From Prostheceraeus crozeri (Eukaryota; Platyhelminthes; Polycladida; Euryleptidae): 64,000 bases of DNA. The notes below the pieces were generated by a model, which searched no databases, had not been told where the DNA came from, and saw nothing but the letters and a program-made list of their open reading frames with translations. Below are positions 21,246 to 50,378 of the stretch, in pieces (the stretch's first letter is position 1; every line of letters starts with the position of its first letter). A program made the translations under genes and the position numbers. The stretch spans positions 123,848 through 187,847 of the forward strand of contig CAJQUW010003470.1 of assembly GCA_907163375.1 (NCBI GenBank). The letters are read 5' to 3'.

Positions 21246-21308
21246 TCGAACGGAGTGACCGAATAATTTTTTCTTATAAATTTTTTGTTAATAAAAATAA
21301 AAAAAAAT

Positions 21309-21614
21309 ATGTTGAATGCTTATAAGATAGAGCATGTACCAGTTTTAAAAGATTATCGTCATCCTACAAATCCTGTAAATTCGAAGAAAGAAGTTAGATT
21401 TTATTATCATCATAAATACGTAGCGCTCGTTACAGATTATAAAACAAAACATGGTATTAAACCGTGCGTTAAAACAAAAGACTTTCCACTTTGTTTAAGA
21501 AGCTTCCGAGTATTTTTGGCGCATAATAATTTAAGGTGGTTGGTTAAGAAAGAACATTTAACAACACATGAATTAGAAACATTACATCAATTACATATTC
21601 CTGTGTATATGTAA
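21309..21614 (+). CDS. Small basic protein, unknown (E1 only)
   Basis: About 101 residues, starting at the ATG at 21309 rather than an upstream TTG because it follows the usual A-rich leader. Rich in His, Lys and aromatic residues (RFYYHHKYVAL, LCLRSFRVFLAHNNLRWL). No family recognised. It lies between the ATPase and the polymerase, in the part of E1 with no counterpart in E2, so it belongs to the polymerase-side module. Confidence 0.55.
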   Translation: MLNAYKIEHVPVLKDYRHPTNPVNSKKEVRFYYHHKYVALVTDYKTKHGIKPCVKTKDFPLCLRSFRVFLAHNNLRWLVKKEHLTTHELETLHQLHIPVYM

Positions 21615-21664
21615 AAAACGGAAGCGAGGTTCTATGTAAAAATTCATTTTTTCTTTTAAAAAAT

Positions 21665-24600
21665 ATGAATCGTGAAATGTCTCTCGGACAAACGTCTAGG
21701 ATTGATGAATTAATCAAGAAACAAACTGCTGAGTTTGATGCGCAAATTAAACATAGTAAACGTAGTAAACGTACTAGGCGTAGTATTAGACGTAATATTA
21801 AAAAAACAGAAAAGTGGAACAAAAGAAATATTAGAAACTCCTATTACTGATACCTTTTTTGATGATAGAATTAAGGATGAACTTGGTGATGATTTATGTA
21901 ATCTATTTAATCCAAATGAAATTAAATATGAAAATGTATCTTTTATTAATGTAGTAAATGATATGCGGAAACTTTTAGCAAATGGTAAAATTATTAATTT
22001 ACTTGGAAAAGTTATTAAAGATCAGGAAAATATAATTCAAAATTTTTACGTAACCTTCTATAATAAAAATTCATTTGAAATATGGTTTTCGAATCTGGAT
22101 GAGAAATCCGATGCTAACGAATGGATTTTTACAGGTAATATTAAATATGAAGATTTTGGAATGAAGTTAGTACAAAGATCGCATAGAGGGGCAGGGATTA
22201 ATATGAAATATAGAATCAAAGAATATTTCGGTGAATATTGTTATATTCCTTCTGAAGATTTTTGTTTTATTAAATGTTATAATGTTTTACGAGGTTTTAA
22301 TGAAGAACAAGGAGAAATGATGAAAGAATGTTTAATAATTTTTTATATAAAGAGAAAGCCACATCTAGAACAGGAGTAATGTCAAACTGCAAATTTTCTC
22401 AATTCAATAAATATTTTGGAGAATGTGTTCAATATTATAGTCCTGCCAATCGTCATTTAAATCCTAGAGGAATTGAAACGTTTCATAATTATGTTTATTA
22501 CAATTATTTTCACGCAGGTTCAACAATTTGTCACTATTGTTTAATTAATAAATCACATAAATTAAAAGCTATTAGAGAAATTGAAAATAATTTCAAACCC
22601 ATATATAAAACAGTTACTGATGAAAATCTAACAACGCGTCCATATAAAATCATAACAAAGAAAAAAATTGACTATGGTTCAACATATATTTGGGATCTCG
22701 AAACTTTTCCTGATCCTAACTGTTCAACAGCTCATCCTATTCCTTATGCTGTAGGAGCCATTAATTTTAATAAATTTATATGTTGCTTACCGAAACAAAG
22801 ATTGAAAGAATTAGAAACACGTTTGTTAAGTGATATGATTAAAATTAAACGATCAAAAGATGAAGATGAAATTAAAAATCTTAAAAAACAGATTAATGAG
22901 TATAATAATTTAATTGAATTAGAATTTAATAAACTTCAAAATTGTGTGAAAATATTTACGAGAACTGAGGATGATGAATGTCCGATCGAGGGAAACTCAG
23001 AGGACGTATGTCCGATCCATCAATTTTTTAAAACTCTTGGAAAATTTAATTATTCGAGAGTAACTTTAATAGCTCACAATTCATCAGGTTTTGATTCCTA
23101 TTTTCCGATAAAAGCTAATTTTAAATTATCTAAACCGCCTCTTAAAACTTCAAGAGGAATATTAACTGCTTCATTACAAAATCCTTATACAACTGAATGT
23201 GTTAGTAGATACATTCAAAAATCTTTTAGTTTTAAAAACAATATGAAAAAAGATTCACCTTCAGGTAAATTAGCACTTCAAACTATTATAATGAAATGTA
23301 GTTATCAACATGTAAAAACAAGTCTTTCTAAATGGTGTGAGAATTTTAAAATTCCTACGAATGTGTGTAAATTAAATTATGAAATTGGAGACATAACACA
23401 TGAAAATTGTAAAGAAAGAGAAATTGAATGGAGACCATATTTAGTTAACGATATTCTTTCTTTAGCTTTTTGTATCTACAAATATAATAATGTTATGCAA
23501 GATTTAGTTGGTGAAGATATAACTACTAATTTGACATCCTCTGCTTTAACATTTAACGGTTGGATGAAAAGCGTACAAAATGACAATATAAATATTCATT
23601 CTCATATAGATTTATGGGCTAGAAATTATATTAGAAAATCTGTTAAAGGTGGAAGAGTTTCAGCAAATATAAGAAAATACATATCACCATTTTGTAGCAT
23701 CTTGTTACCAATATTAAAACAGTATTTACCTGGTCGCTACGCTGGGGGGACTTTGTCCCTTGGAAGTAATTTAATAGATTTAATGAAGTATCGAGATTTA
23801 GGAGATAAAACTGAAATTTGTAGGAAAATTTCAAATCAACTACTTGAACAAAAAAATGAATTTCTAATGGCTTTTGATGCAACATCTTTATATCCATCAG
23901 CTATGTATGATGAAAATTCAGAATATCCTATAGCTGAATCAGCTAGAAAATTTCGTCAAGAAGAAGAGCGGGAAATAGTATATAAATTTAATACTCAAAC
24001 ATTTAGACCTAAAACTGGAATATTCTCTGTTGTGTTTCAATATCCGAATGATATGTTTTTCCAACCAGTTCCTATAAAAGATAAAGTTAAAAATCAAAAT
24101 AATAATTCTCATGTAAAAGTAATCAGGTTTAGAAATGGTATATGTTATGATGTATTAACTTCTGTAGACATACAAGAAATTGTTAGATGTGGGGGAAAAT
24201 CTTACATATTACTGATGGTATAATTTATGAAAAAAATTACCAGGTTTCACCATTTCGAAATTATATTGAAAAACTTTTTAATTTGAGAAAAAGATATAAA
24301 ACAGAAGGAAATACTGTAGGTGATGAGTTAATTAAATTATTGATGAATTCGCTATGTGGCAAAACTGTGCAAAAAGATATAACCACTAAATATCATTTAT
24401 GGAATGAGAATACATTGAGAAAAAATATCACTCAAGAAGTAAAAGATTATGAAAAATTAAATGATGAAAAATATTTAGCGAAAGTAGAAATGGAAGATGA
24501 TGAATTTCTCAAAACTAATATTGTAAAAGATGGGAAGACGTCATTCATGCCATCACACTTAGGTTCTTTCATTCTTTCTCACTCTAGAAGAATCATGAAT

Positions 24601-26199
24601 AACTTTATTTTAGAAATTAATGGTTTCAACGAAAAATACATTCATTATACAGATTCAGTAACAGCTGACACGCCTGTAATATTGAGAAAGAATAATTTAT
24701 TATTTATTTCTAGAATAGATAGTATTGTAAACAACTATAGAATTAATCCGTTTGAAATTAATGGTGATATGAAAGAAATTTCATTTGTTGATAATTTAGA
24801 AATTTATACTCATAATGGATGGAGTAAAGTAAAAGAAATTATTAGACATCTTACAAATAAACGTATTTATCGAATAAGAACAAAAATGGGAATAGTAGAT
24901 GTTACTGAAGATCATTCATTGTTAGATGAAAGTGGTAATGAAATAAAGCCACAAGAATTAAATATAGGAACAAATTTACTACATAATAAATTATTCTTAC
25001 ACGACAATACAATCACATTGAAACAAATTTTATATGATATTTATGTTAATCATCCACCTAATTTAATATGTAGGCGAGCATTTGTAGAAGGGTTCTTTTT
25101 AGGAGATGGTTCTGCTGGAATCTATAATTATGAATCAGGAGTCAGATATTGTTGTACTTTAAATAACCAAGACCTTAACCTCTTAATTAAATTAAAAACA
25201 TATATTAATGAAGCTTATAACAATGATTGTAAAATATATGATACAATGAAATCATCTAGTGTATACAAACTTAATTTTCAAAATCCAAAACAATATGCTA
25301 TATACTTTAGTGAAAATTATTATAATCAGTTTAGAGAAAAAAAAGTTCCTTGGTATGTTCTAAATGCTGAATATAATATTAGATATTGGTTCTTTGTTGG
25401 ATTTTATGCAGCAGATGGGGACAAGAAATCTTTTTTTACAAGGAAATATGCAACTATTCGTTTCACACAGAAAAATAAAGAAACCTTTAGTGGTTTATAC
25501 AATTTGACATCATCTCTAGGTATTAATTTGGTAGTAAGCGAAAGACAAGATAAATCATTATGCTTTAGTGCGTGTCAAGTTAAAAATAATATTACCAAAG
25601 ATGTCACCACGGTAAGATACTTAAATAATAAACCACAATATGTTTATGATATTGAAACAGAAGATGGCACATTTAATTGTGGTTTTCCATTAATTGTAAA
25701 AAACACTGATTCAATATACATTTCTAATGAGCTCTTCAATAAATTAGATGCTGCTGGATATGTTGGTGGGGAATTGTGTCAAGGAAAAAATGATTATGGA
25801 AATGGTGGAATTATTTTTGCAATGTTTATTTCTCCTAAAATAAAATATTGTATTACTATAGATGAACAAGGGAGACTTAGTGAAAAGAAAACATTCAAAG
25901 GATATTCACAAGATAAAGTAAAAGTAGAAGATTTTCTAAAATTATGTTCGGGGAAAACATTATCGACTAGAGTTAATAAACCATGGAAAAGATCTTTAGA
26001 AACTGGAATTAGTATTCCTGATAAAAATAATGATACTGAAGAAAAAAAATTCTCTGGTCAAATAAATATTCTTAAACGTCAAGCACCTGATGAAAATGAA
26101 ATTATGTTACCTTATAACGGAGAAGATATTCAAGCTGAAATATTTCAAACAATCGTCTGTGAGAGTAATTTAAGTGATGATGATGACACGTGGGAATAA
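21665..26199 (+). pseudogene. Family-B DNA polymerase with motif-C intein, frameshifted
   Basis: Protein-primed-type replicative polymerase of the Polinton group. In order: N-terminal domain with a PSEDFCFIKCYNVL segment (about 22,250); exonuclease motifs WDLET (22,694), HNSSGFDS (about 23,075) and YLVNDILSL (about 23,440); polymerase motif A DATSLYPSAM (about 23,875); motif B LMNSLCGKT (about 24,343, Cys for the usual Tyr); motif C split by an intein between YTD and TDS; then a thumb region with KIKYCITIDEQG and KKTFKGY. The frame changes three times, near the A-run at 21,800, the T-run at 22,339 and the G/A-run at 24,191. All are single-base shifts at homopolymers, so decay or assembly error are both possible. 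Not related closely to the E2 polymerase. Confidence 0.9.
24655..25704 (+). other. Intein (350 residues) with LAGLIDADG endonuclease, pol-c site
   Basis: A self-splicing protein insert in polymerase motif C: the host protein reads YIHYTD before it and TDSIYI after it. Block A starts at Ser1 (SVTADTPVIL). Block B has the Thr-x-x-His motif at residues 84-87 (TEDH). Two DOD endonuclease motifs follow, VEGFFLGDGSAG with acidic Asp151 and VGFYAADGDKK with Asp254. Block F is VYDIETEDGTF; block G ends LIVKN with Asn350, and the next host residue is Thr. The usual penultimate His is Lys, a known variation that can slow splicing. The whole 350-codon insert is open. The site equals the pol-c site of archaeal and giant-virus polymerases. 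Confidence 0.93.
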
Positions 26200-26322
26200 T
26201 AATTTTTTTATTACATCTAAAAATTTTATAACATCTAAAAAACTTAATACATCTAAAAATTTTATTACATATGAAAATATGTCTAACGAATATTTTGGTA
26301 TTTTCTATTAAGTTTTATCATA
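26200..26322. repeat. AT-rich tandem spacer at the module junction
   Basis: Imperfect repeats of TTACATCTAAAAATTTTAT between the polymerase stop and protein X. Homology with E2 starts just after this spacer (E2 about 44,990), marking one edge of the exchanged polymerase module. Confidence 0.5.
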
Positions 26323-27731
26323 TTAAGTTTTATCATATAATGTTTTATCAAAAGATAATTTAAATTTATTTTTACTAACTATTGATTCTTCATCATCATC
26401 ATCAATTGATTCTTTAACATCATAAATTACACTTTTTGGTATAGGATGCCATTCCCTGATAGGATACCATTCTCTTATTGGAATATCTAACTCTAAATTA
26501 CATCTTTTATCTGATAATAATATAATAGAGAAAAATATTGGTCTTTGATCTCTTTTGGAAAATTTAATAACACCACCATAATCTGAATCACTTTCAGTTT
26601 TTATTAAAGATGATAAAATTTTAAATTGATTAGATGTAAATCCTAATTTAAATTTTGTAGACCCGACACATAGTTGTCTAACAGTATCTTCAACTACTCC
26701 ATCATTATTATTTTCAATTGTAAGAAAATGAAATATAGATAAATTTTGATTATATGTAGTATTAATATCATGTACATCAGTATGAGATATAAATTTTTCT
26801 TCACTCAAATTTTTATAATTACTAATATTTTCATAATCTTTTTTACCATTTACACCTTTTTCAGATGTTTCAGAATCATCATCTATATTATCATCATCTA
26901 TATTCTCATCATTATTATTATAAGATTCTTTAAAATTATTATTATTATAAGATTCTTTAAAATTATTATTATAAGATTCTTTAAGATCGGGCAAAGCCCT
27001 AGAACCTTCGGTTCGTTTATTATGATTATGATTATGGTCATTGTTAATAGTATAAGATGTTGTCCACATATAAATTTTTTCTTGTTGAGCTAAACAATTT
27101 ATGTAAGATTTTAATAAATTGATATTTAAGTTTGAATATAATCCTATATATGTATCATCATCATATCTTTGGGGCATTTCTAATGTTTCTTGTTTATAAA
27201 TTGTATCTCTATAATATACTTGACATAATAATTCTTCGTTATGTTTTTTACTCTCGACATGAATATTATATTGGTTTTGTTCATCAACAAATAATCTAAT
27301 TTTTCCTTTGAAAAAGATTCAAATTTTTTAACTAATTCTCTAATATTGATATAATTAATAATTTTAGTTTCTATCCAATCAGTATTACTAATCGGCAAAA
27401 CTGCTCTAATAAATCCATAAACATTATTATGACCAATAATAACCATATTTTCTTTATTCAATTCTACATACGCAACATCATTATACTTACTTACAATCTC
27501 CATAAATTTTATAAATGGATCCCCCGGGAAAATACAACAGTTAGTTTCTATGGAAGGTAAACCTTTAGTCTGTTCTCTAAATATTTCGGCTTGTAATTGA
27601 AATAAAATATTTACATCTATACATGAATTATTATTATCGAAACATTTATTTTCAAATCCCGATGATCTCTTCGAATAAGAAGAACAGGATGATGCGGACG
27701 AATATAATTTTTTTAAATTTGCTTTTTCCTT
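26323..27731 (-). pseudogene. Protein X, Asn/Asp-rich, reverse-strand gene
   Basis: A roughly 450-residue unknown protein encoded against the capsid genes in both E1 and E2. The E1 start codon is lost: the position aligned with the E2 ATG reads AAG at 27731. The frame shifts between the 27180-27503 and 26323-27177 open stretches. Visible parts: QLQAEIFREQTKGLPSIE near the N-terminus; a variable ESYNNN and DDDNIDDD low-complexity region made by trinucleotide repeats; an EGSRALPD segment encoded by a palindromic mini-repeat; and a conserved C-terminal block with VRQLCVGSTKFKLGF and SKRDQRPIFF. No family recognised. Its orientation suggests separate, perhaps early, expression. Confidence 0.6.
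26988..27018. repeat. GC-rich palindromic mini-repeat inside protein X
   Basis: Reverse-strand copy of the CGAACCGAAGGTTCTAGGGC type repeat, read in frame as RTEGSRALP. It is also present in the E2 copy at 44290-44320. Confidence 0.8.
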
Positions 27732-27758
27732 TTTTTTATTTTTTATTGTTAAAAAACG

Positions 27759-28643
27759 ATGTTACCAAATGTTGGTGGAGGTGCATATATCCCGAATAAT
27801 CGTGAATTAGAAATAGAGATAGAAAATTATATCATGAAAACTGCAGACGTTTTATCTGGTCCATTGCATCTTTCTATTCTTCCGCAACAAAATACAGAGT
27901 TAACAAATAAACAATATGTTGATACACAAATCAATGACTTAAAAGAAAAATATATAAACGATGTTTTGGTTCCACTGATGAATGAATTAAAGTTGCTAAA
28001 ACTTAATGACAAATCATTAAACGAAAAATTATTAAAACTCGATAAAAAGGATAGAGAGCTAGAAGCAGATATAGCAAAACTTTTTAAAAAGATTTCAGAA
28101 CAATCAAAAATTTTAATATTACTTTCTTCAAATTTAAAATCTGCTGTAATTAAAAATAAACATCAGATAAAAATGTTAAAAGAACAATTAGAAGATGAAA
28201 TAGAAAAACTTCCTGAAAGAATTTAAAAAAATTTAAAACAGTTACAAACTACATTCCAAAAAAGTGTTGATGAATTAAGTTCTAAAATTACTCAACAAAT
28301 GAAAAAGATGAATAGAATAATAAATGAAGTAAACTCACTTAATCAAAAAGTTGATAAAATGAAAAATCTTAAAATCAATTTTGAAAATGAATTAAAGAAC
28401 AATTTACAAGAAAACTCTAAAGAAAATAAAGAACAGTTAGATTCTGTTAAAAAACAGTTAGATGTTCTTAAAGTTAAATTGAATGCTCTTAAAACGGCAT
28501 TGAAGATTAATCAGCAGAAAATGCAAGTTAATAGAAAAGAAATTAAAATACATCACACGCTGCTTGACGCAATAGATAACGTGCAACGGAAAATTAATAA
28601 AGTTATCTCGACGTTGTTGTCCATTCACAAACGTAAATCTTAA
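27759..28643 (+). pseudogene. Fibre-like coiled-coil protein with an in-frame stop
   Basis: One reading frame of 295 codons, interrupted only by TAA at 28224-28226. The N-terminus (MLPNVGGGAYIP) and a TELTNKQYVDTQI segment resemble the attachment part of phage and adenovirus-like fibres. The rest is heptad-rich coiled coil (repeated Leu/Ile with Lys/Glu), broken by the stop into about 155 and 114 residues; the second half could restart at an internal Met at 28299. E2 has the same stop. A trimeric vertex spike is the likely role by position next to capsid genes, but this is inference. Confidence 0.6.
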
Positions 28644-28645
28644 AC

Positions 28646-28735
28646 GGACCAAAAGTCCTCAGGTTACTAACCAATAGAACTTTGTTCAGAGGCTTTAGCC
28701 GATCGGACCAAAGGTCCTCAGGTTACTAACCAATC
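28646..28735. repeat. Paired palindromic repeats after the fibre gene
   Basis: Two copies of CGGACCAAAAGTCCTCAGGT plus GTTACTAACCAAT-like text, separated by AGAACTTTGTTCAGAGGCTTTAGC. The core GGACCAAAGGTCC is a perfect palindrome. Related cores lie at about 31,413-31,437. Possibly a transcription terminator or a second mini-repeat family. Confidence 0.65.
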
Positions 28736-28774
28736 GTAAATATTTTTCCCAAAAGTCAAATTTAATCCTAAAAA

Positions 28775-29305
28775 ATGCCTATAATTTATAAACACAATCT
28801 TAAACATTTTGCTTCAAATCAAAGAATTGCTCATGAACCACGTATGAATCCTGTTTATCATTATGATAATAGAGAAACAGTTCACACGGAAGGAGCTGGC
28901 ATCTTCTCTGGTATTGGAAGTATCGTTAACTTAATTAAAAATAATAAAGATTTGATTACATCTGCTGAAAAAGGAGCAGCTGCTATAGGTAGTACAGCTA
29001 GTGCAATATCAAATGCTGTCAAGTCTCAAAACGAATTAAAACAACTAGAAGCTATTCGTAAACTTAGGAATGATTCCGAAGAACTAAAAAATTTAAAAAA
29101 ACTTTCAGAGGAAACAAAAAATAAAATTGCTAACATAGCTGTTGGGGAAACCTTGAGGAGCGGAGCTCCGTCTGATAGTAAACATAAGAAGAAATCAGGC
29201 GTAGCCAGAAAACGTTCAATTGAAGAAATAAGAGGAAATGGCGTGAGCAGCAACCTTCGGTTTAACCAGCAAAGCCGTAGCGAAGCTGGTCTAGCAAAAT
29301 TCTAA
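28775..29305 (+). CDS. Putative membrane-active minor virion protein
   Basis: 176 residues. A basic N-terminus (MPIIYKHNLKHF) is followed by a Gly/Ala-rich amphipathic-hydrophobic segment at about 40-85 (EGAGIFSGIGSIVNLI, EKGAAAIGSTASAISNAV), a charged helix (90-135), and a basic C-terminal tail with KHKKKSGVARKRS. The arrangement resembles adenovirus pVI-like or polyomavirus VP2-like entry proteins; no sequence signature proves it. The E2 copy at 41880-42410 is intact and nearly identical, an unusual degree of preservation among otherwise broken genes. The tail overlaps a hairpin-rich stretch (CCAGCAAAGCCGTAGCGAAGCTGG). Confidence 0.6.
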   Translation: MPIIYKHNLKHFASNQRIAHEPRMNPVYHYDNRETVHTEGAGIFSGIGSIVNLIKNNKDLITSAEKGAAAIGSTASAISNAVKSQNELKQLEAIRKLRNDSEELKNLKKLSEETKNKIANIAVGETLRSGAPSDSKHKKKSGVARKRSIEEIRGNGVSSNLRFNQQSRSEAGLAKF

Positions 29306-29307
29306 AA

Positions 29308-29412
29308 TTATGTTTTTTAGTAAAATGTTTTTTAGTAAAATTTTTTTAGCAAAATTTTTTAGCAAAATTTTTTTAGTAAAATTATTTTAGTAAAATTATT
29401 TTAGCAGAATTT
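29308..29412. repeat. Tandem AT-rich array before the major capsid gene
   Basis: About seven imperfect 14-16-bp units of TTTTTTAGCAAAATT or TAGTAAAATT type. Preserved in E2 (41,760-41,880). It sits immediately upstream of the major capsid gene and could hold its promoter. Confidence 0.7.
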
Positions 29413-29457
29413 TTCTGTGTGTGAGAAAAACAAAAAGTCAAATTATTTTTTATAAAA

Positions 29458-30790
29458 ATGCCTTCTCTTATCGAAAATAAATTTAGATTAGACGATCCTC
29501 CGTTCGTCAGTTACAATCAAAAAAAGAATGACTATATAAGAATTGCTATGAATCCCGGATCTTCCAGTAGAGTAAATACTGGAGGAGATTTAATTTTTGA
29601 AGTTGATAATCAGCAGAGTTATTTATATTTACCTGGTTCCTTTTTACACTGTGAATATTCTTTATATAGTGATGCCAATTTTACAACACCATTACCAGAA
29701 ACCGATAATATTGCACTAGAGAATAATTTTTTCCAAGATTATTTACACAAATGCGTTTAGATGTTGCAACTCAAAATATAGAAACAATAAGTGATTCTCC
29801 AGGTGTAATTGATACAATGCTTAGATTTGTAACAATTGGTGAAAATAATAAAAAGTATGAAATCGAAGGTTGGTTTCCTGATACTAATGATGGTATAATT
29901 GTTGATGATTTAACTCACGCTGGAACAGATGCAGCAGGAATTGCGAAAGATGTAGAAAATATTGCAAAACATTTAAATAAAACAAACAATAGTGCATATA
30001 AAGAAAGACGTGAATTTAACAAGAAAAGTAAACAGACAGTAAATTGGTCATTGTCTCCATTATTCGGATATTTAGATTATGATAAAATATCATATCAATT
30101 AAAATTTAAATTAATAATTCATCGTACATCAAATAATGAATTAATCTTTTTTGGTAAGACTGGAAAAAAGCATATTTAAAAATTGATAGACTTGAATGGT
30201 GGATTAAGCATATTACTCCTAGTTTAGATGTTGAAACAGCTATTGCAAAAAGATTAAATACTAACAAACCAATTCCAGTAAATTTTCTAAAGCGTACTGC
30301 TAGTTCAGTAACTTTTTCCGAACAAAGATTTAACTGGCATTTTACTAGAACTTCGAATACTCCAAGATATTTATTACTAACATTTCAAAGAAATAATTCT
30401 CCAAGTTTTGATAAGAACAATAATCTTTTTCATATTAATACAATTCGAAGTTTGCAAGTTTCATTAAATCAAACCCGATATCCAATTGATCCATTAAGAT
30501 TCGATGATACCAATAATCAATTTATGGAAGGATATGATGCTTATAGAAATCTTTGTATAGAATTTGGAGTTGAACCACAATTAACTCCTGGAGATTGGAG
30601 ACATTTATATCCAATTTTCTGTTTCGATTTAAGTGCACAATCTGAAGATATTATCAAGACTGGTTGTGATGTTACAATTAATATTGAAAAAAAAGATTCC
30701 ACAACTTCATTGATGGCTTATGGTTTATTGCTAGAAGATGTAAAATATTCTATTGAAATTCTTAATGGAAAGATGGCTAGGATAGGCTAA
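29458..30790 (+). pseudogene. Major capsid protein, double jelly roll (hexon-like), frameshifted
   Basis: The capsid protein that forms the hexon lattice in Polintons. The N-terminal part (29458-29760) has NPGSSSRVNTGGDLIFEV and SYLYLPGSFLHCEYSLY, the first jelly-roll strands. The middle part contains TVNWSLSPLFGYLDYDKIS. The C-terminal part has RLEWWIKHITPSL, FNWHFTRTSNTPRYLLLTF, SLNQTRYPIDPLRFDDTNNQ, PGDWRHLYPIFCFDLSAQSE and a closing TSLMAYGLLLED, strongly typical of the Polinton/adintovirus family. The frame shifts twice, at the T-run 29727-29732 and the A-run 30164-30169; both lesions also occur in E2. A total of about 440 codons fits the family. Confidence 0.88.
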
Positions 30791-30932
30791 AGCCCAAGAC
30801 CTCGTCGATTAATTAATTAATTATTTTTTTTAACTTAAAATTTTTGATAACTTAAAATTTTTGATAACTTAAGAATTTTTCATAACTAGAATAGATTAAA
30901 ATTTTTCCTCACATAAAATTTTTTTATTAAAA

Positions 30933-31043
30933 ATGTCGCAAGCGAAAAGTAATAATAATAAAACTGTTGAATTAAAATTACGTAATATTGTTGACAAAAA
31001 TACCCCTAAAACTGTTACCATTAATAAAAAAAGTATTACATAA
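30933..31043 (+). CDS. 36-residue protein, unknown
   Basis: ATG after a typical A-rich leader, then MSQAKSNNNKTVELKLRNI and TVTINKKSIT, ending TAA nine bases before the next gene. In E2 the same ORF is split by a Penelope-like insertion but its two halves are otherwise conserved. Possibly a virion peptide; no family recognised. Confidence 0.5.
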   Translation: MSQAKSNNNKTVELKLRNIVDKNTPKTVTINKKSIT

Positions 31044-31051
31044 GTAAACCA

Positions 31052-31414
31052 ATGATAGAGAATATTCAATTACAAGAAGAAAAGAATGGCGGGATTCTCC
31101 CATTAATTCCACTAATAATAGGTGGTATAGCAGCAGCAGGAAGTGTTGCAGGTGGGACAGCTGGTATTGTACAAGCAGTAAATAAAAATAAATCAGAGAA
31201 GGCAGCATTAGAAGAACAAAAACGTCATAATAGAGAGTTAGAGAAAGTTGCTAGGGGAGAAGGAGTAGTAGGTAATTTTATTAGTAAATTAAAATTAGTT
31301 GATGAAGGAAAACCAGTTCTTAAAAACATTCTCCACAATGTTGATGATTTAATTGAAATTAAAGAAACTAAAGATGGTTCTGGAATATATCTAAGTCCTA
31401 GTATGATAAGGTAA
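31052..31414 (+). CDS. Small Gly-rich hydrophobic virion-type protein
   Basis: 120 residues. A hydrophobic Gly/Ala segment lies at 13-43 (GGILPLIPLIIGGIAAAGSV, then AGGTAGIVQAV), followed by a Lys/Glu-rich helix and a conserved tail. The GG-hydrophobic-Leu-Pro-Leu motif recurs in small Polinton/adintovirus proteins, including the E3 protein at 60449 (GGFLPALLPML), and has been compared with adenovirus pX/pVI. A membrane-active or core role is inferred. The E2 copy at 36809-37171 is intact. Confidence 0.65.
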   Translation: MIENIQLQEEKNGGILPLIPLIIGGIAAAGSVAGGTAGIVQAVNKNKSEKAALEEQKRHNRELEKVARGEGVVGNFISKLKLVDEGKPVLKNILHNVDDLIEIKETKDGSGIYLSPSMIR

Positions 31415-31437
31415 TAACCTCAGGACCTTTGGTCTGA
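31413..31437. repeat. Short palindrome after the 120-residue gene
   Basis: CCTCAGGACCTTTGGTCTGATTAGG, one of the GGACC-TTT-GGTC hairpins also found after the fibre gene. It lies between two co-directional genes, so a termination or processing signal is possible. Confidence 0.5.
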
Positions 31438-31467
31438 TTAGGTAAAACATTTATTTTATCTTTAAAA

Positions 31468-32805: not shown

Positions 32806-32880
32806 ATATCATTATCATTATTTATTATTGGAGCTATCGTTTCGGGAGTGAAATTCCCTTATTAGGCGTAGCCATAGAAC

Positions 32881-33336: not shown

Positions 33337-33373
33337 TTTATAATAAAACAATTTCTTATAGGGACTTCTAGAA

Positions 33374-34761: not shown

Positions 34762-34764
34762 AAC

Positions 34765-35459: not shown

Positions 35460-35465
35460 AGCAAT

Positions 35466-39232: not shown

Positions 39233-39346
39233 CCCATTAATAAGTCCAACTTTCCATTGCCTAGGGCAAACAGAATTGTAATTTAATAAGAGGCCAAAAA
39301 AGAGTACCTAAACAGACAACATCCTAACCTAAAATTCACCACTGAA

Positions 39347-40169: not shown

Positions 40170-40380
40170 ATAACTGCTTTTCCTACTAGCTTAAATTCTT
40201 GCAAATTCGTGTAATGTGTCTTGTTTTGTCATTGCTTCAGAACGCTAATCAGTCAATTGCACCAGCCGATCGCTGCATCAAGTCTCATTAATCTATTCTA
40301 GTTATGAAAAGTTCTTAAGTTATCAAAAATTTTAAGTTAAAAAAAAATAATTAATTAATTAATCGACGAGGTCTTGGGCT

Positions 40381-41714
40381 TTAGCCTATCCTAGCCATCT
40401 TTCCATTAAGAATTTCAATAGAATATTTTACATCTTCTAGCAATAAACCATAAGCCATCAATGAAGTTGTGGAATCTTTTTTTTTCAATATTAATTGTAA
40501 CATCACAACCAGTCTTGATAATATCTTCAGATTGTGCACTTAAATCGAAACAGAAAATTGGATATAAATGTCTCCAATCTCCAGGAGTTAATTGTGGTTC
40601 AACTCCAAATTCTATACAAAGATTTCTATAAGCATCATATCCTTCCATAAATTGATTATTGGTATCATCGAATCTTAATGGATCAATTGGATATCGGGTT
40701 TGATTTAATGAAACTTGCAAACTTCGAATTGTATTAATATGAAAAAGATTATTGTTCTTATCAAAACTTGGAGAATTATTTCTTTGAAATGTTAGTAATA
40801 AATATCTTGGAGTATTCGAAGTTCTAGTAAAATGCCAGTTAAATCTTTGTTCGGAAAAAGTTACTGAACTAGCAGTACGCTTTAGAAAATTTACTGGAAT
40901 TGGTTTGTTAGTATTTAATCTTTTTGCAATAGCTGTTTCAACATCTAAACTAGGAGTAATATGCTTAATCCACCATTCAAGTCTATCAATTTTTAAATAT
41001 GCTTTTTTCCAGTCTTACCAAAAAAGATTAATTCATTATTTGATGTACGATGAATTATTAATTTAAATTTTAATTGATATGATATTTTATCATAATCTAA
41101 ATATCCGAATAATGGAGACAATGACCAATTTACTGTCTGTTTACTTTTCTTGTTAAATTCACGTCTTTCTTTATATGCACTATTGTTTGTTTTATTTAAA
41201 TGTTTTGCAATATTTTCTACATCTTTCGCAATTCCTGCTGCATCTGTTCCAGCGTGAGTTAAATCATCAACAATTATACCATCATTAGTATCAGGAAACC
41301 AACCTTCGATTTCATACTTTTTATTATTTTCACCAATTGTTACAAATCTAAGCATTGTATCAATTACACCTGGAGAATCACTTATTGTTTCTATATTTTG
41401 AGTTGCAACATCTAAACGCATTTGTGTAAATAATCTTGGAAAAAATTATTCTCTAGTGCAATATTATCGGTTTCTGGTAATGGTGTTGTAAAATTGGCAT
41501 CACTATATAAAGAATATTCACAGTGTAAAAAGGAACCAGGTAAATATAAATAACTCTGCTGATTATCAACTTCAAAAATTAAATCTCCTCCAGTATTTAC
41601 TCTACTGGAAGATCCGGGATTCATAGCAATTCTTATATAGTCATTCTTTTTTTGATTGTAACTGACGAACGGAGGATCGTCTAATCTAAATTTATTTTCG
41701 ATAAGAGAAGGCAT
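40381..41714 (-). pseudogene. Major capsid protein of E2, frameshifted
   Basis: Counterpart of 29458-30790, nearly identical including the two homopolymer shifts (after ENNFFQDY near 41,442 and after GKTGKK near 41,005). A third shift is private to E2: one extra A in the run at about 40,484, which garbles the last 25 codons of that open stretch. Same motifs (RYPIDPLRFDDTNNQ, PGDWRHLYPIFCFDL). Confidence 0.88.
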
Positions 41715-41879
41715 TTTTATAAAAAATAATTTGACTTTTTGTTTTTCTCACACACAGAAAAATTCTGCTAAAATAATTTTACTAAAATAATTTTACTAAA
41801 AAAATTTTGCTAAAAAATTTTGCTAAAAAATTTTGCTAAAAAAATTTTACTAAAAAACATTTTACTAAAAAACATAATT

Positions 41880-42410
41880 TTAGAATTTTGCTAGACCAGC
41901 TTCGCTACGGCTTTGCTGGTTAAACCGAAGGTTGCTGCTCACGCCATTTCCTCTTATTTCTTCAATTGAACGTTTTATGTCTACGCCTGATTTCTTCTTA
42001 TGTTTACTATCAGACGGAGCTCCGCTCCTCAAGGTTTCCCCAACAGCTATGTTAGCAATTTTATTTTTTGTTTCCTCTGAAAGTTTTTTTAAATTTTTTA
42101 GTTCTTCGGAATCATTCCTAAGTTTACGAATAGCTTCTAGTTGTTTTAATTCGTTTTGAGACTTGACAGCATTTGATATTGCACTAGCTGTACTACCTAT
42201 AGCAGCTGCTCCTTTTTCAGCAGATGTAATCAAATCTTTATTATTTTTAATTAAGTTAACGATACTTCCAATACCAGAGAAGATGCCAGCTCCTTCCGTG
42301 TGAACTGCTTCTCTATTATCATAATGATAAACAGGATTCATACGTGGTTCATGAGCAATTCTTTGATTTGAAGCAAAATGTTTAAGATTGTGTTTATAAA
42401 TTATAGGCAT
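41880..42410 (-). CDS. Putative membrane-active minor virion protein (E2)
   Basis: Intact 176-residue copy of the E1 gene at 28775, with three visible residue changes, two of them in the basic tail (KSGVDIKRS). Same hydrophobic segment. No stop or shift, unlike most neighbours, which hints at later decay of the others or at gene conversion here. Confidence 0.6.
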   Translation of the reverse strand: MPIIYKHNLKHFASNQRIAHEPRMNPVYHYDNREAVHTEGAGIFSGIGSIVNLIKNNKDLITSAEKGAAAIGSTASAISNAVKSQNELKQLEAIRKLRNDSEELKNLKKLSEETKNKIANIAVGETLRSGAPSDSKHKKKSGVDIKRSIEEIRGNGVSSNLRFNQQSRSEAGLAKF

Positions 42411-42540
42411 TTTTTAGGATTAAATTTGACTTTTGGGGAAATATTTACGATTGGTTAGTAACCTGAGGACCTTTGGTCCGATCGGCTAAAGCCTCTGAAC
42501 AAAGTTCTATTGGTTAGTAACCTGAGGACTTTTGGTCCGT

Positions 42541-43427
42541 TTAAGATTTACGTTTGTGAATGGACAACAACGTCGAGATAACTTTATTAATTTTCCGTTG
42601 CACGTTATCTATTGCGTCAAGCAGCGTGTGATGTATTTTAATTTCTTTTCTATTAACTTGCATTTTCTGCTGATTAATCTTCAATGCCGTTTTAAGAGCA
42701 TTCAATTTAACTTTAAGAACATCTAACTGTTTTTTAACAGAATCTAACTGTTCTTTATTTTCTTTAGAGTTTTCTTGTAAATTGTTCTTTAATTCATTTT
42801 CCAAATTGATTTTAAGATTTTTCATTTTATCAACTTTTTGATTAAGTGAGTTTACTTCATTTATTATTCTATTCATCTTTTTCATTTGTTGAGTAATTTT
42901 AGAACTTAATTCATCAACACTTTTTTGGAATGTAGTTTGTAACTGTTTTAAATTTTTTTAAATTCTTTCAGGAAGTTTTTCTATTTCATCTTCTAATTGT
43001 TCTTTTAACATTTTTATCTGATGTTTATTTTTAATTACAGCAGATTTTAAATTTGAAGAAAGTAATATTAAAATTTTTGATTGTTCTGAAATCTTTTTAA
43101 AAAGTTTTGCTATATCTGCTTCTAGCTCTCTATCCTTTTTATCGAGTTTTAATAATTTTTCGTTTAATGATTTGTCATTAAGTTTTAGCAACTTCAATTC
43201 ATTCATCAGTGGAACCAAAACATCGTTTATATATTTTTCTTTTAAGTCATTGATTTGTGTATCAGCATATTGTTTATTTGTCAACTCTGTATTTTGTTGA
43301 GGAAGAATAGAAAGATGCAATGGACCAGATAAACGTCTCCAGTTTTCATGATATAATTTTCTATCTCTATTTCTAATTCACGATTATTCGGGATATATGC
43401 ACCTCCACCAACATTTGGTATCATCAT
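42541..43427 (-). pseudogene. Fibre-like coiled-coil protein (E2), broken
   Basis: Starts at MMIPNVGGGAYIP, then loses frame near 43,335 (one T fewer in the run after GAC GTTTTATC of E1). It shares with E1 the TAA about 155 codons in (42,958). The second half (42541-42885) is open. Same TELTNKQYADTQI and heptad-rich content. Confidence 0.65.
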
Positions 43428-43530
43428 TTTTAAAACAATAAAAAAGTAAATTTTTTATATGATGAGAAAAAAAATAAAATTTTTTCTAATAAAAATAAAA
43501 AAGTAAAATTTTTCCTAATAAAAATAAAAA

Positions 43531-44956
43531 ATGGATAAAGCAAATTTAAAAAAATTATATTCGTCCGCATCATCCTGTTCTTCTTATTCGACGAGATCAA
43601 CGGGATTTGAAAATAAATGTTTTGATAATAATAATAATAATCCATGCATAGATGTTAATATTTTATTTCAATTACAAGCCGAAATATTTAGAGAACAGAC
43701 TAAAGGTTTACCTTCTATAGAAACTAATTATTGTTTATTTCCAGGTGATCCATTTATTAAATTTATGGATATAGTAAGTAAATATAATGATGTAGCTTAT
43801 GTGGAATTAAATAAAATATGGTTATAATAGGTCATAATAATGTTTATGGTTTTATTAGAGTAGTATCACCAATTAGTAATACTGATTGGATAGAAACTAA
43901 AATTATCAATTATATCAATATTAAAGAATTAGTTACAAAATTAAAATCTTTTTCGAAAGAAAAAATTAGATTATTTGTTGACGATCAAAATCAATATAAC
44001 ATTCACATAGAGAGTAAAAAACATAATGAAGAATTATTATGCCAAGGTTATTATAGAGATACAATTTATAAACAAGAAACATTAGAAATGCCGCAAAGAT
44101 ATGATGATGATACTTATATAGGATTATATTCAAATTTACATATTAATTTATTAAAATCTTATATAAATGGTTTAGTTAAACAAGAGAAAATTTATATGTG
44201 GACTACACCTTATACTATTAACAATGACCATAATCATAATCATAATAATTTTAAAAATAATAATAATTTTAAAGAATCCAATAATGATAAACGAACCGAA
44301 GGTTCTAGGGCTTTGCCCGATCTTAGAGAATCTTATAATAATAATGATGATGATAATATAGATGATGATAACATAGACGATGATTCTGAAACATCTGAAA
44401 AAGGTGTAAATGGTAAAAAAGATTATGAAAATATTAGTAATTATAAAAATTTAAGTGAAGAAAAATTTATATCTCATACTGATGTACATGATATTAATAC
44501 TACATATAATCAAAATTTATCTAAATTTCATTTTCTTACAATTGAAAATAATAATGATGGTATAGTTGAAGATACTGTTAGACAACTATGTGTCGGGTCT
44601 ACAAAATTTAAATTAGGATTTACATCTAATCAATTTAAAATTTTATCATCTTTAATAAAAACTAAAAGTGATTCAGATTATGGTGGTGTTATTAAATTTT
44701 CCAAAAGAGATCAAAGACCAATATTTTTCCCTATTATATTATTATCAGATAAAAGATGTAATTTAGAATTAGATATTCCAATAAGAGAATGGTATCCTAT
44801 CAGGGAATGGATCCTATACCAAAAAGTGTAATTTATGATGTTGAAGAAACAATTTATGATGATGAAGAATCAATTGATGATGATGATGAAGAATCAATAG
44901 TTAGTGAAAATAAATCTAAATTATCTTTTGATAAAACGTTATATGATAAAACTTAA
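43531..44956 (+). pseudogene. Protein X of E2, Asn/Asp-rich
   Basis: Better N-terminus than E1: ATG at 43531 with MDKANLKKLYSSASSCSSYS. A four-base loss near 43,815 shifts the frame after VAYVELN. The open frame from 43818 runs 337 codons, and a second shift at about 44,810 displaces the acidic tail (which reads DDDDEES in E1). Low-complexity Asn/Asp repeats differ in length from E1, as expected of microsatellites. A mini-repeat (44290-44320) encodes RTEGSRALPD. Function unknown. Confidence 0.6.
44290..44320. repeat. GC-rich palindromic mini-repeat inside protein X (E2)
   Basis: ACGAACCGAAGGTTCTAGGG plus CTTTGCCCGA, in frame, same position as in E1. Confidence 0.8.
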
Positions 44957-45468
44957 TATGATAAAACTTAATATGATGAAACTTAATATGATAAAGAAAA
45001 TAAAATAACTAAAGAACGTGAAATATATAATAATATATATTAACTTTCAAGACCTTGTTATTAGAATGTTTATATCTAAAATTAAAACACATTTTTTCCT
45101 TAAAAAATAAAAAAAGAAAATACCAAGTTTTATTGTAACTTATGTAAAAAAAAGTTGCAAACAAAAAGAAGTTATCAATCTCATTTAAATAGTAAAATGC
45201 ATTTACAAAATGTAGATCGAGTTGATGAAGGAAATATATTAAAATTAAACAGTTATAAAAACTATCTAGAAACATTGCCTACTGATATAAAAGTTAAAAA
45301 AATGTTTGATGATTATTCACATTCGGAATACAAAAAAGTTTTTAATAGTGAAGATGAACATGTACCAGATGGAAGATATTTATTTAGCGATACTGATGAA
45401 TTTAACGAAATAGATGAATTAAACGAAATTAAAAAAACAGATGAAGCTGAACGAACCGATGAAGCCGA

Positions 45469-45497
45469 ACGAAACGAAGGTTCTAGGGCTTCGCCCA
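45469..45497. repeat. GC-rich palindromic mini-repeat in the E2 polymerase linker
   Basis: GAACGAAACGAAGGTTCTAG plus GGCTTCGCCC, translated RNEGSRASP. First of two copies 63 bases apart. Confidence 0.8.
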
Positions 45498-45531
45498 TAA
45501 CAGATATAAAATATTTATTTAATGAATCGGT

Positions 45532-45560
45532 ACGAACCGAAGGTTCTAGGGCTTCGCCCG
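45532..45560. repeat. GC-rich palindromic mini-repeat in the E2 polymerase linker (second)
   Basis: ACGAACCGAAGGTTCTAGGG plus CTTCGCCCG, translated RTEGSRASP. In frame like the first. Confidence 0.8.
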
Positions 45561-48500
45561 TTGAACATAATGAAACCGATGAAACTTTTTCTGATATTCT
45601 AACAAACTTTTATAATATATTTAAGAAATCTTTCAAATTTTATATGAATGTAGAAGTACTTTATACAAAAAATGGACCTGATGGAATTCCTGAAGAAATA
45701 ATACAAGGACATTTTACAAATTCGCAAGAAATTCATAATGTAAATGATATACAACCCATATTTGAATCGATGATACTTAAATTAGAAAATTGTATAATTG
45801 AAGCCCAGTTACGTGAATCTGGTTGGAGATTTGTTAAAATACTATCTAAGAAAATAGTAATTGATAAATATAAAAATAATACTGGTGGTAGTTATGTTCC
45901 TTTGTCTTTCAGTTCACCACAAATAATCAACATAAAAAATGAAGATGATTATTGTTTTCTGTAGAGTATTATAGCACATTTACATCCTGCAAAATATCAC
46001 AAAGAAAGACTAAGTCATTACAATAAAGAAGAATACATAAATGAATTTGATCTCTCTGATGGCTTACATGAATTTCCATATGATTATAATAGGTTAAAAA
46101 AGTTTCATAAAAAGAATAAAAATTTAATAGAAGTAAATGTTTTTGAATTAAATGTGAATTATGTTTCTATTGGTAAAATTACTCCACTTTACTCAGATTC
46201 AAAAAAATTTTATTTGAATAATAAAAATTTATGTCAATCAGAAATAGTATATAATGATAGAGGAAATTACATGCATCATAATATTTTTTACCAAGGAAAT
46301 ATAATATGTACTGAAAAATTTCAAATTGTTAAAACACTATCACCAATAATGATTAATCATAATAATTATAAAGGACGTAATTATAATTATGATTATGATT
46401 CCGATTATTTATCTTTATCTTTAGAATATCAACAAAAATTACAAAATTTAAATGAAATTTTAAAAAAATGTAAAACAGATTATCAACAACAAACAAAAAT
46501 GATACTACAAGAATATCACCATAAATATCAAAATAAGATAGAAACGATTCAAAAATTAAATGAAGAAAATAATGAAGAAAATGAAACCAATCAAAAAATA
46601 AATGAATCTTTAAAAAAATGTCTACAACAATATAAAGAACAATATAATAAAGAATATGAACAACAGCTACAAATATTAAATCAAAATTTTCATCGAAATA
46701 CATTTAATCTTGCAAAAGAAATTGATGAAACACATGAAATATATGAAGACAAATTTGAAAAATTAAAACAAACAAAGCAACCAGCACAAGCGAATATATT
46801 ATATTATCAGGGTCATTTTATATTGTGTAAAGATGTTTCTATATTTACAAAAACTTCAGATAATACAAATTTTCCTTGTCTTCAATGTATGACAAGTTTT
46901 AGAACTAAAGAAGAAATGAATAGACATTTGGAGAATTGTCAACAAAACGAAGCAGTTGAAAATACTTTTCCTAAAGATGATTATTTAGAATACATTAAAT
47001 GGTATTTCAAAAATAAAGTACCCTTTACTATTTATTGTGATTTCGAAGCATATAATGTTAATATGACACAAAATCACGAGACATCGGAGATGTCTTCCAG
47101 GGCTTCATCCGATTCTGAAAATTATAATTCTGAAAATGATAATTCTGAAAAAAGTGCAGCTGAACAAAGTAAAGAAAATTATTTATTTGAACAAAAACCA
47201 TTATGTTGGGGAATGTACATTCATTCAAATTATCCTGAATTATTTAAATCAGAATATTATCAATACTATGGTGAAGATAGTTCAGAAATGTTTACAAAGA
47301 AAGTAGAAGAATTACAAGTACGTTTTTCACAATTGCTTGAAACAAATATTCCAATGATGCCATTAACAGAAAAAGAAAAATTAAATTTTATTAATGAAAC
47401 AAAATGTTATTACTGTGGAAAAGAATTTACAAAAAATTATAAAAATGGCAGAGGTAGATATCTTGATAAGGTAAAAGATCATGATCATCTAAATGGATTA
47501 TATAGAGGTGCAGCACATAATTCTTGTAATCTTAATGCTAATAAATTTAAATATAACTTTGTTCCTTTATATTTCTACAATGGTTCTAAATATGATTTCC
47601 ATCTAGTAATGAAAGATTTATTTTCATCTGAAAAATTACAACAACAACAAATAAATGTACTATGTAAAACAGAAGAAGAATATTTTTCAATGCAATTAGG
47701 TTGTATTAGAATTTTAGATGCATTTAGATTTTTTACTCCTTATTCATTAGATGTTATTGGAAAACTTTGAAATCTGAACAATGTAAAATATTAAATAAAT
47801 ATAATTTAAAACATTTAAAAGGCATATTTCCGTATGAATATATAACTGGAGATAAAACCTGTGGTTCACAGTCGAAGACTGATTTTAATTCTGTGAATAA
47901 AATTATGGAAGAAAAATAACTTCCTCCAATAAATAAATTTAAATCAACATTAAAACAATCACAATCATCTGAAGAAGATTATGCAGAAGCTGAAAAGAAT
48001 TGGAGAGAGTTAAATTGTAAAACAATGTATGATTATACAATGAAATATCTTCAGATAGATGTATTAATACTAGCTGATCTTTTCGAAAACGTTCGTGACA
48101 TGTGTTTAGAATATTACGGAATAGATCCATGTTATTGTTATTCTACACCAGGTTTAACATGGTTAGCAGGATTAAAACATACAAATGTTAAACTTAAACA
48201 TTATAAAGAAAATACATATGATAAATTATTATTTTTTGAATCTGGAATTAGAGGTGGAGTGTCATCAGTTTTAGGTAATCGTTATGTACAGTGTTACAAT
48301 AAAAAAGTAAATCCTGATGATTATGGAATAATGAAACCTTTATCTCCGAAAGAAAAAGAAAAAATATTAGAAATTTTTCGAGCGAAACGAGAAGGAGTAG
48401 AACGTGAAAATGCAATTGATGAATTCATGAGAGAAAACTATTTGTTATATTATGATTTTAATAGCTTATATTCTTCTTGCATGATACAAGAATTACCAAC

Positions 48501-49642
48501 AGGTGAAATGTCATGGTGTAATATTCTTGATTATCAAAAAACATATGATGGAAATTATAATCATGGTTATATATATGAAGTTGATTTAGTATATCCTGAT
48601 GAAATAAAAGATAAAACAAAATATTTTCCTTTCTGTCCCGAAAACAAAATTCCGGGTTTTCAGATTTAGTTTTCAGATTATCAAAAATCTATAATTCCTA
48701 AGAAATACAGACCAACAAAAAAACTTATGTTAACACAAAGTAATAAAGGAAAGTATGTTGTTGAAGGAAGAATGCTAGATTGGTATTTAGATCATGGAAT
48801 GATTCTCACAAAAATTCACCGGAAACTATTTTATCAAAAATCTAGGTGGTTAAAAGATTATATAGAGTTCAATATTGAAAAACGTAAAATAGCTAAAAGA
48901 AATAAAGATGATTTTGGAAACATGTTCTTCAAATTAATGAATAATGCATTTTATGGTAAGACTTTAGAAAATGTGCGTAATAGACAAAATATTGAAATAG
49001 TTTATGATAAAGATAGGTTTCAAAATTTAACAAGGAAACCTACATATAAAAGAACTACTAGATTTAGTGATGAACTATGTGCTGTACATTTACGTCGAAT
49101 CAGCGTAAAACATGATAAGTTTAATTTTATAGGATTCACTATATTAGAATTAGCTAAACTATTTATGTATAGATTTATATATGATTATTTAGCACCTGCT
49201 TATGGCAAAAACTATAAATTTCACTTTACAGATACCGATTCTGTTTTCTTAGAATTAATAATACCGTATAATTCTACACTTGATGAAGAAATTAATAAAA
49301 TAAAAGATATCATTCATCCTTCTGATTTATGTAAAGTAAAAGATGAATTAGAAGGAAATAAAGATTTCATAACAGAAGCTATATTTTTAAAATCTAAATG
49401 TTATTGTTATAACACAACTAATAATATTAAAACACATAAAACATTAAAAGGAATTTCAAAGGCATCAGTGGCTAATCAAATAACATTTCAAGATTATAAA
49501 AATGTATTATTTAATAATGAAATAAAAACAGCATGAAATTATAGACTTAATTCAAAGAAACATAAAATGTATTTAAAAGAAGAACATAAATTAGCATTAG
49601 ATCCATTTGATGATAAAAGAAAAATTTTACCTGATGGAATAA

Positions 49643-50378
49643 CTACTTCACCTTATCAATATTAATTGTAATGAAGCCATAATCTTTTGACCAAGCATTG
49701 TTACACGATTGTTTAAATTCATCTTTATTTCTTACACATAAATCTCTTAACAAATCACTTAAGTTTCTTGCATTTATTTCAAATAGTATAAATATATTTG
49801 CATTCTTTCTAATAACACTTCCGTCTAATGAATACATACTTTGTGTTAAATAAAAAACACTACAGTTATTATGTCTACCTCTTGTAAAATAATTTCTCTG
49901 AACTGACTGATTTCTATCATTAACACAATCATCAAAAATTACACAATGTTTCATTGTTTTATCTAGTTTACTTGGATCTTGCATATTACCACTATCATCT
50001 ATTCATTGTATCTTTATATGCTTATTTTTATTGGATTCTACTAACTGACTATTTTTTGCTGCTTCTTCACACCACGAACTTATTTCTTCTTCATCTTCAG
50101 ATTTTTCATATTCTTTGAATAATGAAGCAATTGCTGTTTTTTTTAAGATTATTTTCAAATCCATATTTTAAAAATTGATAGACGGGTTGTTCTGCCGTTG
50201 TTGAATAAATTATAAGATTGTTATAATCCAAAAAATTTGGAGTCGTTAAAATTTTAAATAATAGATACGTTTTTCCACAACCTGATCTTCCGCAAATAAC
50301 TGACAAAACTTTATTAGATAAATTTGGATGATGATTAAATTTAAGTTTCTTTTTATTTAATGGGAGCACTTCACTCAT
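49643..50378 (-). pseudogene. Genome-packaging ATPase of E2, broken and 3'-truncated
   Basis: Starts at 50378 with MSEVLPLNKKK and has a good Walker A, GRSGCGKT. The frame shifts at a T-run near 50,145, the TGA at 50003-50005 equals the E1 stop, and Walker B CVIFDDCV follows. The last 20 or so residues of the E1 protein are missing: after ITINI the sequence switches into the tail of the oppositely oriented polymerase. This point (about 49,660) is one edge of the exchanged polymerase module. Confidence 0.85.

Follow-up and report, generated by a model that had tools for sequence, protein, structure and literature searches.

How have two neighbouring Polintons that are near-identical over a common set of genes come to carry different DNA polymerases, and what was exchanged between them? 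The question is raised by a stretch of 64,000 nucleotides from the flatworm Prostheceraeus crozeri (contig CAJQUW010003470.1, hereafter the window), in which two elements, E1 and E2, abut and are inverted to each other. Their extents, terminal repeats (TIRs) and shared blocks (the 'chassis') are as follows, in window coordinates:

17312..35456, + strand: element E1 (pol1 type), ends set by eye on the printed junctions
35463..55230, − strand: element E2 (pol2 type), inverted relative to E1 and 6 bp away
17312..17572, no strand: TIR1, left copy of E1; its outer ~170 bp are the pol1-associated tip
35195..35456, no strand: TIR1, right copy of E1 (blastn)
35463..35953, no strand: TIR2, one end of E2; its outer ~210 bp are the pol2-associated tip
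54740..55230, no strand: TIR2, other end of E2 (blastn)
17730..21202, + strand: left chassis block of E1, with g236, g270, penton and ATPase (the last two named by the initial annotation)
49653..53021, − strand: left chassis block of E2 (blastn against E1)
26306..31954, + strand: right chassis block of E1, with protein X (on the − strand), g155, g176, capsid, g128 and PLA2
36269..44973, − strand: right chassis block of E2, split by a retroelement-like insert
31939..32805, + strand: RVE integrase core of E1 (PF00665 above cut-off), sharing a reading frame with the PLA2 domain and missing from E2

In blastn, the E1 repeat spans 17308-17572 and 35195-35460 (about 265 bp, 98% identity) and that of E2 spans 35460-35953 and 55233-54740 (494 bp, 99% identity). 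The flanking 6-mers, considered as a candidate 6-bp target site duplication, agree at five of six bases around E1 and four of six around E2. Both elements resemble Polintons/Mavericks in their PF03175 polymerases, long TIRs and PF21738 capsid domain and, in E1 only, the PF00665 integrase. The capsid domain, a double jelly-roll major capsid domain, was matched by the piece at 30158-30787 of E1 (E=2.1e-13), where the frame is interrupted, and the right chassis block of E1 also contains a PF08398 match. The penton and ATPase pieces (19512-20300, 20505-20849 and 20871-21245) had no Pfam match above cut-off. Since the polymerase, capsid and ATPase frames are broken in these copies, 'chassis' refers to sequence and not to working genes.

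The near-identity reported by the initial annotation was borne out, at 94-99.6% in the common blocks. Five inverted collinear blocks were recovered by blastn (E1/E2, identity over aligned columns): 17730-20305/53021-50461 (97.2%), 20349-21202/50480-49653 (97.5%), 26306-27743/44973-43520 (94.4%), 27735-30899/43450-40288 (99.6%, computed with the start taken as 27744) and 30951-31954/37272-36269 (98.4%); the capsid tract is alike in both elements and free of mismatches. Between them, 21202-26306 of E1 and 44973-49653 of E2 gave no mutual alignment in the blastn comparison of the two elements. E2 also lacks 31954-33180 of E1, a stretch in which the integrase and the greater part of the protease gene lie, and the terminal accessory genes differ, as do the terminal repeats. 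The non-aligning segments contain the polymerases:

21321..26199, + strand: pol1 of E1, broken frames (ORF pieces 21735-22379, 22328-24223 and 24187-26199), in tandem with the ATPase
24655..25705 (approximate edges), + strand: intein carrying a LAGLIDADG endonuclease, within pol1 (above-cut-off matches to TIGR01445 and PF14528)
45155..49663, + strand: pol2 of E2, broken frames (ORF pieces 45155-45964, 46154-47770, 48025-48669 and 48727-49536), convergent with the ATPase

Both genes lie on the + strand of the window and the elements are mutually inverted, so the polymerases point in opposite directions within their elements, between ATPase and protein X, just as originally described. They had also been called unrelated, which overstates their difference. 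PF03175 was matched above cut-off by two pol1 pieces (22328-24223 and 24187-26199) and by pol2 piece 48025-48669, and below cut-off by piece 48727-49536; tblastn with relatives of each gave a weak cross-match (E 2e-5 to 3e-5). In BLASTP, the best match between pol1 and pol2 pieces was E=0.005 over 48 residues, and one full-length relative of pol1 had no significant match to one of pol2 (E=0.28). Judged by their sequences, pol1 and pol2 are distant members of one family-B superfamily that fall in different subfamilies, and from PF03175 both are predicted to be of the protein-primed kind. The pol1 start, 21321, is where the sister-family pol1 match begins in two loci, while the pol2 pieces line up along a 1286-aa relative.

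The LAGLIDADG insert in pol1 is a predicted intein, with further matches below cut-off to PF14890 and PF05204; the extein is continuous around it and relatives that align across its site are without it. Intein homing as a driver of polymerase exchange found no support, the intein being absent from 8 of 10 pol1 copies checked. Two structure models were poor (mean pLDDT 57.0 and 62.4), and their Foldseek matches to bidnavirus-like, adenovirus and adintovirus polymerases therefore serve as leads only. The same is true of a by-eye likeness to the N-terminal OTU-like domain of adintovirus PolB; no Pfam OTU match was found in the polymerase pieces or in the relatives P0002 and L001. Scans of IMG/VR with the penton, a pol2 alignment, a capsid piece and a pol1 relative returned no confirmed relative, and a DNA pattern search for pol1 found none. 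Comparing by eye the lengths of the contigs hit by penton and by polymerase revealed no match that would link the two. The equivalent pol2 search recovered one locus, L001, together with four contigs of bacterial or archaeal metagenome-assembled genomes, which we take to be misbinned eukaryotic DNA.

The initial annotation placed both states in one locus and proposed a search for other copies. E1 and E2 do adjoin, but the search found that the two states are not confined there: each is a many-copy family on the same ATPase in the 2.05-Gb host assembly. Pol2 is convergent with the ATPase in all 30 loci examined, E2 included, which were drawn from 143 matches listed; all 15 pol1 copies chosen from about 70 listed have the tandem arrangement, the ATPase preceding the polymerase on a common strand. 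This recurrence rules out E1 or E2 as a one-off chimera. Neighbours that are inverted and near-identical are difficult to assemble, and the mismatch-free capsid tract could be a collapse of reads, yet it is extremely improbable that the exchange itself is an artefact of assembly or a nested insertion here, given that both states recur, in the same orientation, on many other contigs. When 40 ATPase matches were compared by position with the listed polymerases (all 70 pol1 places and two pol2 places picked by eye), only three could be tied to a polymerase, E1 itself being one. Orientation is not tied to polymerase type, since a sister family carries a pol1-like gene convergent with the ATPase in 8/8 cases, as against the uniformly tandem E1-type copies.

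The wider sample also redefines the junction. The ATPase-side edge of E2, originally placed near 49,660 as a module border, is a deletion (edge 49,653) that is absent from the other 29 pol2 loci; with the deletion lying in E2, the edge at 21,202 in E1 is rejected as the exchange point too. The E1-type spacer follows the ATPase stop in all 15 pol1 copies, which suggests a single origin of that junction. On the reading favoured below, the replaced stretch is the polymerase gene, running with little deviation from the stop codon of the ATPase to where gene X ends.

The replacement extends beyond the polymerase itself. TIR2 is outermost at 14/14 pol2 ends (8 left, 6 right) and at none of 16 pol1 ends, where TIR1 is outermost at 13 (8/10 left, 5/6 right); the other three are uninformative, two (L088 and L108) showing no end and one (L089) being truncated at the inner repeat. 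At every informative end examined, the polymerase is accompanied by its own outer 170-210 bp of terminal repeat. At the pol2 locus L026 a TIR1 tip lies next to the ATPase; we read this as a second element inserted there. The initial annotation had described a clean polymerase swap within a shared virion set; the swap stands, opposite orientation included, but the unit also takes the tips, a change that went unmentioned in that account.

A plainer history would have two subfamilies differing by chance in polymerase and tips and then expanding in recent bursts, so that the association reflects linkage without functional coupling. The copies examined were those nearest E1 and E2, mostly 97-98% identical to them in the query piece, and their tip association is therefore not a set of independent events; this similarity, the 15 alike pol1 junctions and a slight differentiation of the ATPase by type (excess 0.35%, equalled by none of 2000 label shuffles) all accord with such descent. 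However, the ATPase has no fixed and 10 shared differences among 16 pol1 and 30 pol2 rows, and a single clade of pol1 rows was rejected (AU p=0.023) in a tree that is weakly resolved, with 40 of 49 inner branches open and bootstrap not settled. Moreover, at 7 of the 13 informative pol1 ends, TIR2-type inner repeat begins directly behind a ~170-bp tip of TIR1. These observations together indicate that sequence between polymerase and tip moved between the types, and we consider simple descent unlikely.

Integrases act on element ends, and the tips might instead follow a type-specific integrase that recognises its own ends, with the polymerase as passenger. A difference of integrase could be read from the stretch downstream of one pol1 copy (L108), where the match is only about 40% identical to the integrase of E1, a match that may come from a different element; the 14 pol2 end stretches yielded no integrase. 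We think this explanation quite unlikely.

Our essential contention is that the polymerase and its own tip at both ends probably make up a replication cassette that can be exchanged on a common virion/capsid chassis, present in two many-copy Polinton types; functional coupling of polymerase and tip is what we infer from their association. A protein-primed polymerase would start at the ends and recognise its own end, and a new polymerase would persist only with its own tip. Recombination between elements replicating together would give rise to the exchange, one new end would be copied to the other, and the capsid genes would go on recombining between types.

Several known systems resemble this arrangement in part. 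Polintons/Mavericks differ from the present case, in which two polymerase subfamilies in opposite orientation, each paired with a tip of its own, occupy one chassis within a single genome. Adintoviruses likewise have re-paired capsid and polymerase lineages, mixed Alpha/Beta hexon-PolB pairings (AB and BA) having been reported (PMC11071296); that re-pairing is between deep clades, while here the blocks are 94-99.6% identical, orientation is flipped and the tips change with the polymerase. The EMALE01 and EMALE02 elements of Cafeteria are, similarly, endogenous elements of one species with a shared and an exchanged part, but what they exchanged was the morphogenesis module (PMC8547959), where E1 and E2 exchange polymerase and tips. 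In Polinton-like viruses, discordant pDNAP and MCP trees indicate separate histories of replication and structural genes, as in E1 and E2, although the portion of that source considered here mentions neither a near-identical pair nor a link to end sequences (PMC12220804). A model for polymerase-end matching comes from the protein-primed origins of phi29 and Nf, which differ in belonging to phages with a 6-nt terminal repeat and in having the parental terminal protein as the main signal (PMC4974454).

More generally, we regard it as an evenly balanced proposition that a Polinton genome consists of two separately inherited parts, a recombining capsid chassis and a replicon of polymerase plus the outer 170-210 bp at both ends, with two mutually incompatible replicons drawing on one capsid pool in one genome and installation of a replicon able to flip the orientation of the polymerase. 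That relatives of Polintons exchange replication genes is known mainly through discordant trees of distant elements. The present case shows such exchange at 94-99.6% block identity, in a genome that contains both states in many copies and in which the tip changes with the polymerase. In the natural recombinants the candidate tip shrinks to about 170 bp, and origin recognition by a eukaryotic protein-primed polymerase becomes directly testable.

The locus holds two Polinton-type elements, mutually inverted and with 6 bp between their ends, together with several smaller features:

about 17,312-35,456 (+): E1, Polinton with the family-B polymerase type pol1
about 35,463-55,230 (-): E2, Polinton with the family-B polymerase type pol2
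38475-40258: insert in E2, presumably Penelope-like, with inverted arms 99.5% identical and an ORF that is GIY-YIG-like by eye (Pfam matches weak)
19398-19428, 26989-27015, 44292-44318, 45470-45496 and 45533-45559: palindrome-rich short inserts inside coding frames or at their ends, the first in E1, with E2 lacking it at the matching site
12087-12644 and 55344-55901: inverted repeat, 97%, outside the element pair
7019-7690: hAT-like ORF, hAT dimerisation region above cut-off
14695-16694: hAT-like ORFs, weak dimerisation and BED-finger matches

Aligned with 35,461-55,250, the stretch 17,308-35,460 yields five long collinear blocks in inverted orientation, with identities of 97.2, 97.5, 94.4, 99.6 and 98.4% over aligned columns, and this bears out the near-identity outside the polymerase module described in the initial annotation; the same comparison finds no match between 21,202-26,306 and 44,973-49,653. 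Pfam supports the capsid, integrase and PLA2 domains, and the names penton, ATPase, fibre and protease come from the initial reading of the sequence. Across seven gene pieces (g270, penton, two ATPase pieces, PLA2, g155 and X, the gene beyond the polymerase) dS is 0.03-0.12 and dN/dS 0.03-0.24; dN/dS is 0.50 in g236 and 0.54, from three changes, in g128, and g176 and three capsid pieces have no synonymous changes. On these values, much of the divergence looks like that left by purifying selection, and would predate the decay of these two copies. There are no mismatches over 29,300-30,799, with other 300-base windows differing by up to 10.8%. The nearly mismatch-free capsid tract (28100-30800 in E1, about 40300-43050 in E2) shares identical frame interruptions, and reflects either recent gene conversion or read collapse.

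The breakpoints of the exchanged piece are narrowly placed by copies elsewhere in the genome. On the ATPase side, homology between E1 and 29 other pol2 loci stops at 21,227-21,246, the latter position lying directly behind the ATPase stop, and homology with the pol1-like gene of a sister family starts at 21,321 (two loci). On the X side, E1 ceases to match pol2 copies at 26,306-26,307 in seven of eight loci and at 26,262 in the remaining one; its pol1 frame ends at 26,199. From these alignments, the exchanged piece comprises the polymerase gene and about 110 bp or less per side. The ends of ATPase and pol2 meet directly in E2 (49,653-49,663); since the other 29 pol2 loci keep roughly 120-190 bp between these ends, the tight junction is a deletion in E2.

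The initial annotation called the two polymerases unrelated, which holds only in part. In its favour, full-length relatives of each (P0002, 1083 aa, for pol1; L001, 1286 aa, along which the E2 pieces align, for pol2) have no significant BLASTP match (E=0.28), and the best of three pol1/pol2 piece pairs reaches E=0.005 over 48 residues. Against it, PF03175 is found in both, above cut-off in E1 pieces 22328-24223 and 24187-26199 and in 48025-48669 of E2, and below cut-off in 48727-49536; the E2 piece 46154-47770 also has an endonuclease VII match below cut-off. At E<=0.001, homologues number 10 for the E1 polymerase piece and 95 for that of E2; in tblastn against the whole window each set matches its own cassette and makes one weak match in the other (2.8e-5 and 2.0e-5), and this search found no further remnants of the opposite type. 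Judged by sequence, pol1 and pol2 are distant subfamilies within one superfamily. In the pol1 of E1, the YxD-TDS motif is the site of an intein that carries a LAGLIDADG endonuclease (approximately 24655-25705); of ten other pol1 copies checked (L096-L105), two have this intein and eight lack it. Homing-endonuclease inserts in Polinton polymerases are already published (PMC11071308).

Both modules recur in the 2.05-Gb assembly, where the window is C2880:123848-187847. The E2 polymerase piece has at least 143 matches, and the E1 piece 72 rows representing about 70 copies, all 97-100% identical. Orientation is constant within each type: pol2 and ATPase run towards each other on opposite strands, 3' end to 3' end, in 30/30 loci cut out (E2 included), and the ATPase lies upstream of pol1 on the same strand, with E1's spacer behind its stop, in all 15 copies picked from the 70 or so. 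These copies were chosen by likeness to E1 and E2 and are therefore not independent. A third group, the sister family (the best eight PF03175 matches), has an intein-less pol1-like gene, about 77% identical and convergent with the ATPase in 8/8, and ATPase DNA 85-88% identical to that of E1. Thus three arrangements, pol2 convergent, pol1 tandem and pol1-like convergent, coexist in one genome. Among 40 listed matches to the E1 ATPase, position links two to pol1 (one being E1) and one to pol2. In a scrambled locus adjoining a sister-family element (L017 and L018, C4930:40300-53500), g270 and penton are preceded, in the same line, by pieces of pol2.

An ATPase stretch of about 370 bp, compared across 16 pol1 and 30 pol2 rows (E1 and E2 included), has no difference fixed between the types and 10 shared ones. 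Rows differ on average by 1.43 and 1.60% within the types and by 1.87% across them; none of 2000 label shuffles gave so large an excess. The tree needs five type changes and rejects pol1 as a single clade (p=0.023); 40 of its 49 inner branches are open, and the starred branches force only two changes. These data fit one exchange followed by incomplete mixing, and do not by themselves prove repeated exchange.

The terminal inverted repeats, TIR1 of E1 and TIR2 of E2, share one 30-bp match at 90%; their outer parts (170 bp of TIR1, 210 bp of TIR2) have only short words and one 37-bp stretch at 76% in common. TIR2 is outermost at all 14 pol2 ends sampled (8 left, 6 right), L059 having only the last 105 bp of its outer part. 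TIR1 is outermost at 13 of 16 pol1 ends (10 left, 6 right) and TIR2 at none; the remaining stretches have no visible end (L088, L108) or are cut off within the inner repeat (L089). Seven of the 13 TIR1-tipped ends switch to TIR2-type inner repeat right after TIR1 position 170, and six continue in TIR1-like sequence. Neither tip was found in the two left regions taken from the sister family. At one pol2 locus (L026) a TIR1 tip faces the ATPase at the expected place of penton, and probably belongs to a second element inserted there.

Each element has a g236 fragment next to its far-end TIR (35093-35196 in E1, 35938-36021 in E2), that of E1 matching E2's g236 at 88% and its own at 83%. Four of six pol1 right-end stretches (L106, L107, L109, L111) likewise have g236 matches next to the TIR. 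Such fragments suggest that end sequence was earlier copied across to the opposite end.

Because the mid-element polymerase stays with both tips while the ATPase and inner repeat are shared, polymerase and tip appear to be coupled. That the integrase, and not the polymerase, determines the tips seems to us a less likely explanation of the same association. Downstream of the pol1 copy in L108 (C641:94290-96290), an integrase match, possibly part of another element, shares only about 40% identity with that of E1.

Published accounts provide precedents in mixed Alpha/Beta hexon-PolB pairings of adintoviruses (PMC11071296), morphogenesis-module exchange in EMALEs (PMC8547959) and discordant trees of PLVs (PMC12220804). 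In the literature available, mostly outside subscription journals, we found no description of polymerase and tip exchanged together in near-identical Polintons.

Protein-primed polymerases begin at DNA ends. According to PMC11071308, Polinton pPolBs carry a fused terminal-protein domain; if that picture holds here, a new polymerase would persist only with its own tip. The route might then have been recombination between co-replicating elements, followed by copying of one end onto the other. A polymerase needing its own tip is the simplest reading of the tip association.
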